Below are positions 8,972 through 58,185 of a stretch of 64,000 nucleotides of DNA, one piece after another (position 1 is the stretch's first letter; every line of letters starts with the position of its first letter). The position numbers and the translations under genes are program-made. This DNA is from Clostridiales bacterium (GTDB taxonomy: Bacteria > Bacillota > Desulfotomaculia > Desulfotomaculales > VENG01). Location: the NCBI GenBank assembly GCA_016278505.1, contig JADQBQ010000020.1, positions 1-64,000 of the forward strand, written 5' to 3'. The notes under the pieces were generated by a model. The model was not told where the DNA came from. It worked only from the letters and a program-made list of their open reading frames with translations, and ran no database searches.

Positions 8972-10529
8972 AATCCACCTCCGTATAGCCGGTCTTGCCG
9001 TATATTGGCAGGCTAAAAGAAAAAATGCTGCCTTGATTGGGGTGACTTTCCAGGTTTATGGTTCCCCCTTGCAATTCCACCAGGTTTTTTACCAGGGAGA
9101 GTCCCAGACCGGTACCGCCGTAGCTTCTGGAACTTGTCCCGTCAATCTGGTAAAACATATCAAATATGGCTTCATGCTCCAAGGGGTCAATGCCTATGCC
9201 GTTATCTTCTACCGTTATTTTTGCATGGCTTAAGCTATTGTCCAAGTAAGCTGAAACAAGAACTGTACCTCCGGCAGGAGTAAACTTAAGGGCATTGGAA
9301 AGAAGGTTGCTTAAGATTTGACTGACTCTTTCCACATCCCCGGTAACTATAATGCTTTTTGGGGGGGATTCTACTTCTAAAAATATACCCTTGTTATCAT
9401 ACTGTGGTTTGAAGCGCCGTACTATAGTGTCCACAAGCTCTTCCACCATTATTTTTTCTGACCGTAATATCATCTTACCGGCCTTGATCCTAGATAGGTC
9501 CCTTATTTCGTTAACCCGGCTAAGAAGATCGTTGCTGCTGTCGCTGATTTCGTTTACGTAATCACTTTGCAGGGGGGTTAAGGGGCCCGTCTGGGTGTCC
9601 TGTAAAAGCTCAGTAAAGGCAATGATGGCGGTAAGGGGCGACCTTAACTCATGGTTGGTATTGGCCAGAAATTCGTCTTTCATCAGATCCGTCTTTTGCA
9701 ATTGTTCATTAGCTTTTTCCAGTGCGTGGCGCTGGTCATCCAATTCCTTATTGGCCTGGAAAAGTTGCCCGATGGCCTCGTCAAAAAGTCCCTTTAGAAT
9801 TATCCCGAAAGAGATTATTTTAAATATGTGGCCTAAAAGATTGTAAGAGTCATAAACGTAGTTATAAGTAGCAAAGGCCAGTTCACCGAAAACCCCCACT
9901 GCCAGTGCGTAAGTGAGTAATACATCCCGTTTGTCCGTGGACTTGCTCGTTAAGAGCTTACCTGCGGTAAGTACATATAAACCAATGACAATATACTCGC
10001 TCAAAATTTTCGTCATAGTCTGTGTCTGTGCAGCGGGGTCATACATGCCGGGCAGGTAAGGCAGTAGAAAGGCTACGGCACCTATGCCGACCATGGAAAC
10101 AAGGATTACCAGTGTAAAAACTATATTAGCAACGGGTATGCGCAGCTTTCTGTCCTTTAAGTAGATGGCCAGAAAAATACCCAGGCCTTGTACCAGCCGG
10201 GCCATTATCCAATAGGTAGAGGCTTTATTGGCACTGTTCTCCGTAATAAAATACGGCATGCCCAGATAGGAAAGGGAGTGCACAAAATCAAGCATGCCCA
10301 TAATGCAAAAGGTGAAGGCCAATATAAGCATCTTCTGTTGCTGTTGGTAGCGGTATTCATACCAACAGAAAATACTGACCAGTATGGCTACAATAACGCT
10401 GGCAACTTCCAGTGTTAGGTGAGTGGTCAAAAAGAATTCACTGTCCAGGACAATGTAAATGTGTCCCGCCAAAAGGTACAATATAAGCAGAGACATTAAG
10501 GTGACCGTAAAGTTCCGTAGCTTAATCAT
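8961..10529 (-). CDS. Membrane histidine kinase, MASE3-like sensor
   Basis: Sensor kinase partner of the overlapping response regulator. Residues 1-~250 form about seven to eight membrane helices with a MASE3-like pattern. A coiled linker (KELDDQRHALEKANEQLQ) follows. The H-box FLANTNHELRSP carries phosphoacceptor H293, and the ATPase domain shows N, DNGIGID and GGTGLGLS boxes. There is no extracytoplasmic domain, which suggests sensing within or near the membrane; the ligand is unknown. ATG 10529 is preceded by GGGAGGTGAT at a rather long distance (about 16 bases); no better in-frame start lies between. Confidence 0.93.
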   Translation of the reverse strand: MIKLRNFTVTLMSLLILYLLAGHIYIVLDSEFFLTTHLTLEVASVIVAILVSIFCWYEYRYQQQQKMLILAFTFCIMGMLDFVHSLSYLGMPYFITENSANKASTYWIMARLVQGLGIFLAIYLKDRKLRIPVANIVFTLVILVSMVGIGAVAFLLPYLPGMYDPAAQTQTMTKILSEYIVIGLYVLTAGKLLTSKSTDKRDVLLTYALAVGVFGELAFATYNYVYDSYNLLGHIFKIISFGIILKGLFDEAIGQLFQANKELDDQRHALEKANEQLQKTDLMKDEFLANTNHELRSPLTAIIAFTELLQDTQTGPLTPLQSDYVNEISDSSNDLLSRVNEIRDLSRIKAGKMILRSEKIMVEELVDTIVRRFKPQYDNKGIFLEVESPPKSIIVTGDVERVSQILSNLLSNALKFTPAGGTVLVSAYLDNSLSHAKITVEDNGIGIDPLEHEAIFDMFYQIDGTSSRSYGGTGLGLSLVKNLVELQGGTINLESHPNQGSIFSFSLPIYGKTGYTEVDYGT

Positions 10530-10644
10530 GGGTCGCAGTTAATCACCTCCCATAAGGACATTAAGTTGGCTTACCAATAGGTGAAATCCTGCAAAATTTG
10601 CCGAAGTTTTTACTATACAAGCTATAACAACAAACTATAACATT

Positions 10645-10684
10645 AAAAAAGCGCGCTAAATCAGTCCTCTTAGCGCGCTTTTTT
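10645..10684 (-). terminator. Terminator of the 10.75-11.15 kb gene
   Basis: Perfect 15-bp stem AAAAAAGCGCGCTAA / TTAGCGCGCTTTTTT with a 10-base loop. A/T runs on both sides make it bidirectional in principle; on the minus strand it closes the small membrane gene. Confidence 0.88.
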
Positions 10685-10752
10685 ATACTTTAAACCTTAA
10701 TGGCAAAGATATATTTTACAATATTTGTTATACATGTTAAGTGGCTTTGCTG

Positions 10753-55282: not shown

Positions 55283-56695
55283 TTAAATCAGTCTTTCTTT
55301 TTTTACGTTACCACGCATATCAAGCACGTGGGTGGCGCACTGTAGGCAGGGATCAAAGGAACGGATTATTCGTCCTAAAACATTGAATAGCATCTCCTGC
55401 CTGGGCACCACCGTACCAACCAGGGCACCTTCCGTGGGACCCAGCCGGCCGTATTCATCTTTGGGAGAGAAGTTCCATACCGAGGGTGTAATAATGTTAT
55501 AACGAACTACCTGCTCGTCTTCTATCCAAGCGCTGTGTAGAAGTGCACCGCGCATGGCGTCAGTTGTAGCCACTACTTTATTTTTTACCGGCGTCTTTTT
55601 TTGTTCGATGGGGGCAGGGCCCGGTTTTAACCTCTTCAGCCAGTCCTCCATAAGCTGCGTGAAATGTACCGTTTCCAGGGTGCGGGCGTATATTCTGTCC
55701 ATGGTGGAGGCCCCGCCCCGGTGCTTGCCGTTAATGATCATTCTGGCCAGAGGTCCCACCTCATAGTGCTGCCCGCCATACGTTACTGACTTTGACCAAG
55801 TATACGCACCGGGCTTGTATGGATTAGGAATTAGTTCTTTGCCCTTAGAACCCTGTTCAAATGCTGTGCTGAACCAGCTGTTGGTGATATCTTCATTTAT
55901 AAGTCCTATGTCCAGCGGTATCAGTCTGTTCCCCTTTTGTACACCGTTTTTCAGCAAAAGTCTTTCGTTTTTGGGGCCGAATCTGAAGAGCCCAAAGGAT
56001 AAAAATTGCCCCTCAGTCACCCCTATCTGGTAATAATCGCTATAAGCCCGGGCTATTAGCTCGGTGTCCGGGACCAGTTTACCTTTGACAAATTCGCGCA
56101 CGGTTTTGGCCAGGGCAAGGGCGCGATTTATTTTATCAGCTGTTGGTGCCACTGAAACGCCGCCGTGCACAAAACTATGTTGGTGGGGTGCTTTACCGCC
56201 AAAAAGCGCTAATATTTCATGGCTTTTCTGAGAGACTTTGATAGCCTCAAAATAATTTTCTAGTAGGCGCTGGTCATCTTTAGGATTTAACCGGGCATCT
56301 GAAAGGTTTTGCCCGTGAAAGGGTGGGCGCTGAGGCATGCGTACGTAATCCGGCAGGCCAAAGAGGTAGAAATGCCGGATGTGATTTTGTATTATATCCG
56401 AGGCGTACATTATATTCCGCATCAATTGTGCATTTTCCGAAAGGGTATTATCATATAATTCATCCAATAGGTAGCTGGCGACGGCACCGTGGGCTGTAGA
56501 GCATATGCCGCATATCCTCTGAGTCATATATACGGCGTCGGTGACATGACGGTCCCGCATAATCCACTCAAATCCCCTGAAGGTAGTACTACTGGCATTG
56601 GCATTAACTACCCTATCGCCGTCTAGGGTAACTTCCACGGACAAAAGGCCTTCCAGTCGGGTTACCGGGCTAAACATTACTCTCTTTTTCGCCAT
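55283..56695 (-). CDS. [NiFe] hydrogenase large subunit
   Basis: Holds the NiFe active site. L1 motif RICGICSTAH with C62 and C65; L2 motif DPCLQCATH with C450 and C453. The 14 residues after H456 form the C-terminal peptide removed by the maturation protease, encoded divergently next door. FSPVTRLEGLLSVEV and TFRGFEWIM are as expected. Its ATG overlaps the small-subunit gene by 19 bases. The exact hydrogenase group cannot be set by eye. Confidence 0.95.
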   Translation of the reverse strand: MAKKRVMFSPVTRLEGLLSVEVTLDGDRVVNANASSTTFRGFEWIMRDRHVTDAVYMTQRICGICSTAHGAVASYLLDELYDNTLSENAQLMRNIMYASDIIQNHIRHFYLFGLPDYVRMPQRPPFHGQNLSDARLNPKDDQRLLENYFEAIKVSQKSHEILALFGGKAPHQHSFVHGGVSVAPTADKINRALALAKTVREFVKGKLVPDTELIARAYSDYYQIGVTEGQFLSFGLFRFGPKNERLLLKNGVQKGNRLIPLDIGLINEDITNSWFSTAFEQGSKGKELIPNPYKPGAYTWSKSVTYGGQHYEVGPLARMIINGKHRGGASTMDRIYARTLETVHFTQLMEDWLKRLKPGPAPIEQKKTPVKNKVVATTDAMRGALLHSAWIEDEQVVRYNIITPSVWNFSPKDEYGRLGPTEGALVGTVVPRQEMLFNVLGRIIRSFDPCLQCATHVLDMRGNVKKERLI

Positions 56696-57633
56696 TTATT
56701 GGTCTCCTTATCCTTATTTGATCCCTTTTCACTGATGGGTGTAAAAAAGGGTGTTGAGCCATCCGGAAAATCCTCGTTTGTACACCCTATGCATGGGGTG
56801 TTAGCTCTCACCGGCCAATTTACATAGTTAATCCACTGCCGGTAAGGACAGTCCGCCCCGGTGCGAGGCCCCATGCATCCCTGGGAGAACATGCACTCGA
56901 TATCCCCCAAATTTTCCGCGAAATCCCCCTTATCAAAATATGAGCGGCGCTGGCAGTGCCGGTGCACGGTGTAGCCGTAAAACAAGGTGGGGCGCCCAAG
57001 TTCGTCAAGCTCCGGGCGGCCGTACATAAGCAAATGGGCCAATGTACCTACAAACCAGTCCGGGTTGACGGGACACCCGCTGACATTGATGATTTCCCGG
57101 TTCAAGACTTGCCGGACCGCCACGCTGCCGGTAATGTTTGGCTTTGCCGAGGAAACCCCTCCAAAGCTCGCGCAGGTACCCATGGCGACAACATATTTCG
57201 CTAAGTTCCCAAGCCAGTTTACTGCCTCCAGTGCGGTTATATTTCGGTTTTCAGTACGGATAATTATGTTATACAGGCCGTTGTCCTTTAACGGTATGGC
57301 CCCCTCTACTACCAAGGTAAATTGTCCCTTAAGCATAACAGCAGCTTGTTCTAAAATATTTAAGGCATGCTTACCCTGGGCAGTCATGAAGGAGTTACAG
57401 TACAATAGGTCGATCATATCTGTGAAAACCTGCCCGGCGTAAGGGTAAGTGGAATTTAAAAAAGCTATGTTGTTATCACCGCTATCGCTGGTTTCAATCC
57501 ATATTACCGGCAATCTTTTATTCTGTTCACCTGCCTGAAAACTGCTTACCTCCTTTAGTATTGCTTCCGTAAGGGTATGGTCGCTGCGCGGTGCCAGGTC
57601 ATGACAGAGTTCGTTGAACTTTTCCTTGTCCAT
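56677..57633 (-). CDS. [NiFe] hydrogenase small subunit, proximal CxxC replaced
   Basis: Electron-transfer subunit. Distal cluster ligands H224, C227, C247, C253 and medial cluster C262, C281, C284 are spaced as in standard small subunits. Two proximal ligands, C154 (GTCASFGG) and C187 (GCPVNP), are present. The other two are not: after PVIWIE the usual CxGC reads D50-S-G-D53, confirmed in the DNA without frameshift. Aspartate can replace one cysteine in actinobacterial-type hydrogenases; replacement of both is unusual to my knowledge. There is no Tat signal, only a ~40-residue N-terminal extension, so the enzyme is probably cytoplasmic. Confidence 0.92.
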   Translation of the reverse strand: MDKEKFNELCHDLAPRSDHTLTEAILKEVSSFQAGEQNKRLPVIWIETSDSGDNNIAFLNSTYPYAGQVFTDMIDLLYCNSFMTAQGKHALNILEQAAVMLKGQFTLVVEGAIPLKDNGLYNIIIRTENRNITALEAVNWLGNLAKYVVAMGTCASFGGVSSAKPNITGSVAVRQVLNREIINVSGCPVNPDWFVGTLAHLLMYGRPELDELGRPTLFYGYTVHRHCQRRSYFDKGDFAENLGDIECMFSQGCMGPRTGADCPYRQWINYVNWPVRANTPCIGCTNEDFPDGSTPFFTPISEKGSNKDKETNKWRKRE

Positions 57634-57690
57634 AATAAAAACTCCCTACACATTTTGTATTAATGTATGATCACGGGCATAAGGAATTAC

Positions 57691-58185
57691 ATGAATAATT
57701 TAAAATGTAAAGTATTAGTGCTAGGAATAGGTAATCTTTTAATGTCTGATGATGGTCTGGGTGTGTATGTCGCTCAGTGGCTGAAGCAAGAAAATTGGCC
57801 GCAAGAGGTATCCATTCTGGAAGTAGGGACTTCGGTGCTCAACTATATAGATGAAATAAGTTGCAGCTGTTATGTCATAGTGATCGATGCTGTCAGGGGT
57901 GGTGAAAGGCCTGGTAGCATTTACTGCCATAGGGACGACAAAATAATGCAGTATGTCCTTGACAGGCAGGATGCACACAGCTTTTCCGTATTGCAAGCCG
58001 TAGAACTGGCCAGAGAACTAACCGGATATCCGGTTAAACTAATCATTTATGGCATGGAGCCAATGCATATAAATTATGGCCAAGGCCTTTCTCCTTTGGT
58101 TATAAAAGCATTACCCATGTTGGTTAACCAAGTGATTAAAGAGATAAAAAGCTATAACAGCGACAGGACGATTAGAGACTGCTGA
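57691..58185 (+). CDS. Hydrogenase maturation protease
   Basis: HycI/HyaD-type endopeptidase that trims the large-subunit C-terminus after nickel insertion. VLVLGIGNLLMSDDGLGVYV has the Glu/Asp nickel-sensing position, IVIDAVRGG the conserved Asp, and DAHSFSVLQAVELA the His region. ATG 57691 behind AAGGAA is preferred over ATG 57667. It diverges from the hydrogenase genes with under 60 bases between starts. The last few codons and the stop lie in a dispersed repeat, so the native C-terminus may have been replaced. Confidence 0.93.
   Translation: MNNLKCKVLVLGIGNLLMSDDGLGVYVAQWLKQENWPQEVSILEVGTSVLNYIDEISCSCYVIVIDAVRGGERPGSIYCHRDDKIMQYVLDRQDAHSFSVLQAVELARELTGYPVKLIIYGMEPMHINYGQGLSPLVIKALPMLVNQVIKEIKSYNSDRTIRDC

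Follow-up and report, generated by a model that had tools for sequence, protein, structure and literature searches.

The window, by which we mean the whole 64,000-nucleotide stretch of DNA analyzed, carries the two structural genes of a [NiFe] hydrogenase and a maturation protease gene. The features are listed below, with counts referring to the clade of 44 small subunits described later; the last line lies elsewhere in the same genome.

55283..56695, minus strand: [NiFe] hydrogenase large subunit, 470 aa (PF00374), C-terminal extension present
56677..57633, minus strand: [NiFe] hydrogenase small subunit, 318 aa, intact frame (PF14720, PF01058, TIGR00391)
57469..57486, minus strand: D50-S51-G52-D53-N54-N55 loop replacing the proximal-cluster CxG[C/D/N] motif
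57172..57174, minus strand: Cys154, kept proximal-cluster ligand (44/44)
57073..57075, minus strand: Cys187, kept proximal-cluster ligand (44/44)
56875..56964, minus strand: distal-cluster ligands H224, C227, C247, C253 (each 44/44)
56782..56850, minus strand: medial-cluster ligands C262, C281, C284, three-Cys type (44/44, 43/44, 43/44)
57667..58185, plus strand: hydrogenase maturation protease, HycI/HupD type (PF01750, TIGR00072), divergent from the structural pair
Contig 47, 9907-10704: second small subunit of the same genome (L001)

The small subunit scores above the cut-offs of TIGR00391 (hydA; 224.5 bits against a curated 179.5) and PF14720 (102.1 against 27). It has the distal His plus three Cys and the three medial Cys of group 1 enzymes, and only two (C154 and C187) of their four proximal Cys. 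The loop that stands in for the N-terminal pair is encoded by GAT AGC GGT GAT AAC AAC. The first-pass annotation had assigned the medial, distal, and remaining proximal ligands to these positions and had reported both cysteines of the N-terminal proximal pair as missing; the alignment of the 44 clade members agrees on each point. Two other cysteines were rejected as compensating ligands. Cys10, present in 40 of 44 clade members, also occurs in 19 of the 53 outgroup sequences, where Cys17 is present, and seems to be a remnant of a Tat signal. Cys79 is found in the window copy alone. The second [NiFe] small subunit of this genome (3.92 Mb, 56 contigs) is 382 aa long and has the proximal motif TCAGD.

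Both CxxC nickel-ligand motifs of the large subunit, L1 (RICGIC) and L2 (DPCLQCATH), are intact, and its gene overlaps that of the small subunit by 19 bases. Together with the divergent protease gene, this matches the earlier description of an intact large subunit with its own protease. Across 38 loci, recurrent neighbors are the large subunit (36 loci), the protease (13 loci), and further genes that, named from their sequences, resemble hyp maturation genes; no conserved electron-transfer partner gene was found beside the small subunit among these loci. The C-terminal extension of the large subunit is normally removed by a protease. In loci L047, L050-L054, L056, L057, L059, and L068 (Sporomusaceae/Negativicutes), large subunits stop exactly at DPCxxCATH and there is neither an extension nor an adjacent protease gene; other members have both. 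The large subunit at the Sporomusa ovata locus (L054) is 454 aa long and, by length match only, may be the lone 454-aa [NiFe] hydrogenase listed among the hydrogenases of this species in a review (PMC9253864).

The proton-gate Glu of the RxEGH motif corresponds to residue 15 of the large subunit (window 56651-56653, minus strand). It is replaced by Ser in 39 of the 41 clade members covering the region (TRLSGLL), and the window copy is the sole member with Glu (TRLEGLL); most related Firmicutes enzymes have Ser or Asn here. Of 43 large subunits, 41 retain His171 of the KxPH motif; in known structures, the region presumed to be equivalent touches the proximal cluster. In Huc, a conserved His (His166) makes such a contact (PMC10017518). 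Within residues 171-175 (56171-56185), clade members have Ser174 (42 of 43), a residue that is mostly Gly in relatives; this may be a second-sphere difference close to the proximal cluster.

No Tat signal is seen by eye in the small subunit, whose N-terminus, MDKEKFNELCHDL, has neither twin Arg nor a hydrophobic stretch, and no C-terminal membrane helix is recognizable in the protein. Clostridial relatives likewise lack a Tat signal (PMC9431212). Judged from these features, the enzyme is probably soluble and cytoplasmic. Residues 1-36 (57526-57633) form an extension that resembles a decayed Tat signal (KEKFNELC versus RRxFxKLC) and is predicted by AlphaFold as two helices.

Homologs were gathered from one genome per species in GTDB r220, with searches of relatives, the phylum, and the class. 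Close homologs are numerous (62-78% identity), with such a copy in 10 of 398 genomes sampled evenly across the phylum and in 26 of 113 genomes of the class. The motif is present at 50 distinct loci: 48 read DSGDNN, among them L092 with a Cys at residue 49, one reads GSGDDN (L040), and one CSGDNN (L085/L041). A plasmid search gave 124 records, every one below 60% identity, and served as a source of reference proteins. Maximum-likelihood analysis of 97 small subunits places all 44 clade members on one branch (support 99/99). A clade sharing the motif, which the first-pass annotation had proposed to look for, is thus found. Its consensus is [D/C/G]SGD[N/D]N; S51, D53, and N55 are each conserved in 44 of 44 members and D50 in 42, the exceptions being G in L040 and C in L085. 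Members are anaerobes that belong to Desulfotomaculaceae, Desulfallaceae, Sporomusaceae, Syntrophomonadaceae, and other families of Bacillota, and include the named isolates S. ovata, Pelotomaculum propionicicum, and Desulfotruncus arcticus.

The identity of the residues at the two cysteine positions, 17 and 20 in Desulfovibrio gigas numbering, depends on the alignment register. In the ungapped alignment, position 17 is Cys in all 53 outgroup sequences and Ser51 in all 44 clade members. Position 20 is Asn in 30, Asp in 18, Cys in 4, and Gly in 1 of the outgroup sequences, and Asn54 in 43 of 44 clade members with Asp in L040. S51 is therefore placed over Cys17 and N54 over Cys20, with D50 and D53 each one residue upstream. 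The same ungapped register is returned by phmmer against PDB sequences, by MAFFT, by an HMM built from outgroups only, and by profile-profile alignment. AlphaFold models, built without cofactors and without the large subunit, have a strand at 41-47 and a helix from 53 in the window protein (mean pLDDT 86), and a strand at 25-31 and a helix from 37 in the nearest CSGD relative, L093 (mean pLDDT 81). These boundaries match at a constant offset of 16, but the models are not independent of the alignments because their inputs were ungapped. Ser51 is encoded by AGY in 44 of 44 clade members, a single base away from the TGY codons of Cys17, whereas the outgroup Ser at position 18 is encoded by TCN in 25 of 25; as a test of register, codon families are suggestive only, as the columns of Ser156 and Ser185 differ similarly. 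We suggest that S51 and N54, rather than D50 and D53, probably occupy the canonical Cys positions, and the one-to-one placement of D50 and D53 in the first-pass annotation is not our first choice.

That placement corresponds to a register shifted by one residue, with D50 and D53 exactly at Cys17 and Cys20 and a [4Fe-4S] cluster on two Cys and two Asp, a special case of the explanation we prefer. It would keep the Gly of CxGC in register, and Gly19, invariant in all 53 outgroup sequences, would otherwise be lost. Moreover, CSGD occurs in the nearest outgroups as ACSGDS and, displaced by one residue, in clade member L085/L041 as NCSGDNN. However, the shift requires a compensating deletion and insertion in a loop of constant length and goes against every alignment, D50 is the less conserved Asp, and the N54 to D change in L040 fits the interchange of Asn and Asp seen at position 20. 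We regard the shifted register as rather unlikely, and keep a site of two Cys and two Asp as a tentative candidate because one clade member has CSGD at residues 50-53.

The two cysteines were apparently lost at different times. The motif clade is nested in a Firmicutes group (98/99) whose remaining members carry CxG[D/N], suggesting that the loss of Cys20 preceded that of Cys17. Among the 53 outgroup sequences, 48 already have Asn or Asp in place of Cys20. The double change first reported is therefore correct in that two Cys are gone, but not as a single double event; the event specific to the clade would be the loss of Cys17 with remodeling of its neighbors. We propose that Cys20 would have changed to Asn or Asp in an ancestor of the wider Firmicutes lineage, and that Cys17 would have been lost in the motif clade as the loop turned into D-S-G-D-N-N. 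Firmicutes cytoplasmic-type CxG[N/D] hydrogenases (45-59% identity) resemble clade enzymes in fold, two-subunit architecture, medial and distal ligands, absence of a Tat signal, and Ser or Asn for the proton-gate Glu, but keep Cys17 (53 of 53 versus 0 of 44 in the ungapped alignment). Clostridial acetogen relatives of this type are classed as group 1a by HydDB (PMC9431212). Kinship with these Clostridium enzymes, together with PDB matches and a reference tree that includes HoxK, HofK, HoxB, HybO, D. gigas, and Desulfomicrobium baculatum, suggests that the clade enzyme is group-1-like and related to group 1a.

Known enzymes share parts of this arrangement. The best PDB sequence matches are the Dm. 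baculatum [NiFeSe] (1cc1) and D. gigas (1frv) hydrogenases (37-40% identity), which are also the best fold matches to the small subunit (TM ∼0.87-0.91, normalized to target). Unlike clade members, both have a canonical CTGC and are periplasmic and exported by Tat. Cupriavidus necator HofK (actinobacterial-type, group 1h) reads GCDGDS, with Asp at Cys20, as expected from the first-pass remark that a single Cys-to-Asp change is known from such hydrogenases. HofK, like the clade, is non-Cys at this position but keeps Cys17, and has 35% identity over 211 residues. The window protein has no CxGD and falls on a different branch than HofK, whose long branch makes its placement unsure. The record for HofK (C. 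necator pHG1, L112:19962-21017) labels this small subunit 'hydrogenase expression protein HypE'. Nostoc HupS and Mycobacterium Huc, of the CxGN type, also lack Cys at the second proximal position, but have three proximal cysteines versus two in the clade. In FrhG of methanogens and in a Methanosarcina barkeri protein with Cys to Asp at the first position (PMC4070099), only one of four proximal Cys is replaced by Asp, and FrhG has a ferredoxin domain where the clade enzyme has its medial/distal domain.

Single replacements of a proximal Cys by Asp or Asn occur in nature at both positions, and C78D, C81D, and C81N variants of the Alteromonas macleodii enzyme keep measurable activity (PMC4070099). 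The 4Fe4S clusters of HupS are intact according to work cited in PMC4070099, the proximal cluster of Huc is a [3Fe-4S] (PMC10017518), and Asp60 of FrhG is placed at the proximal cluster (PMC3591093). Natural and active single substitutions, Huc, and FrhG are precedents for the proximal center proposed here; none has both positions changed. Activity was not detectable in the double-substituted A. macleodii constructs (distal plus medial), the only ones with multiple substitutions in that study (PMC4070099), which counts against the explanation that we prefer.

On balance, we favor a soluble, group-1-like, two-subunit [NiFe] hydrogenase with its proximal Fe-S cluster held by C154, C187, and oxygen ligands of the loop. 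The cluster would be retained on the two Cys plus one or two of Ser51, Asp53, or Asp50, and electrons would still pass from NiFe to the proximal, medial, and distal clusters. We infer a redox-active proximal center from the invariant medial and distal ligands and from the KxPH His; a relay lacking this center would leave them without an evident role. The sequences show the change itself, its fixation in the clade, purifying selection, and conservation of every other ligand; presence of the cluster, its ligands and nuclearity, the cytoplasmic location, and the partner are inferences. Whether the clade has a widespread natural relay Fe-S cluster with two Cys and serinate and/or carboxylate beside the [NiFe] site of a functional hydrogenase is, in our estimation, an even question. 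In the open PMC literature we found no description of both N-terminal proximal positions changed together, though subscription journals may differ, nor of a comparable two-Cys relay cluster in nature.

Loss of the proximal cluster, or its replacement by a mononuclear metal or [2Fe-2S] site, would make the enzyme a slow valve, a sensor, or a user of another electron route. Such a change would agree with there being just two cysteines at the proximal site, with the replaced proton-gate Glu, and with the absence of a conserved partner gene alongside. Invariant medial and distal ligands would be odd without a relay, however, and replacement of the Glu is not tied to loss of Cys17 because Ser or Asn is common at this position in outgroups that have Cys17. 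We consider loss of the cluster improbable and return to the retained cluster as the preferred reading.

The small-subunit gene is under strong purifying selection (dN/dS ∼0.04-0.12 in six pairwise comparisons) and the motif is fixed in the clade, in line with the first impression of a gene maintained rather than decayed. Both synonymous codons are in use at D50, D53, and N55 across the clade. Two missing cysteine ligands could in themselves reflect a decaying gene, a sequencing error, or an assembly artifact, but the motif is fixed in 44 sequences spanning many families and several isolates; this fixation, together with intact frames, low dN/dS, and synonymous variation within the motif, excludes these causes for practical purposes. 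Low dN/dS and conserved medial and distal ligands imply that the enzyme is maintained, with an electron relay that seems still to be used.

The proximal cluster sets the rate and potential of electron exit from the [NiFe] site, as well as the response to oxygen. To our knowledge, what is understood of it comes mostly from mutants and a few natural single substitutions. Single substitutions at the proximal site are already published; the double loss with a fixed Asp-Ser-Gly-Asp-Asn-Asn loop is what appears to be new. With two of four proximal Cys gone, the cluster is either held in a way undescribed in the open PMC literature or absent. The clade is a natural case in which half of the proximal cysteines are gone yet the relay is seemingly kept, and it includes cultured species such as S. 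ovata, from which the enzyme could be purified to learn if a functional cluster can be supported by two thiolates together with oxygen ligands. The series from CTGC through CxG[D/N] to DSGDNN in related enzymes represents a natural experiment on ligand exchange.
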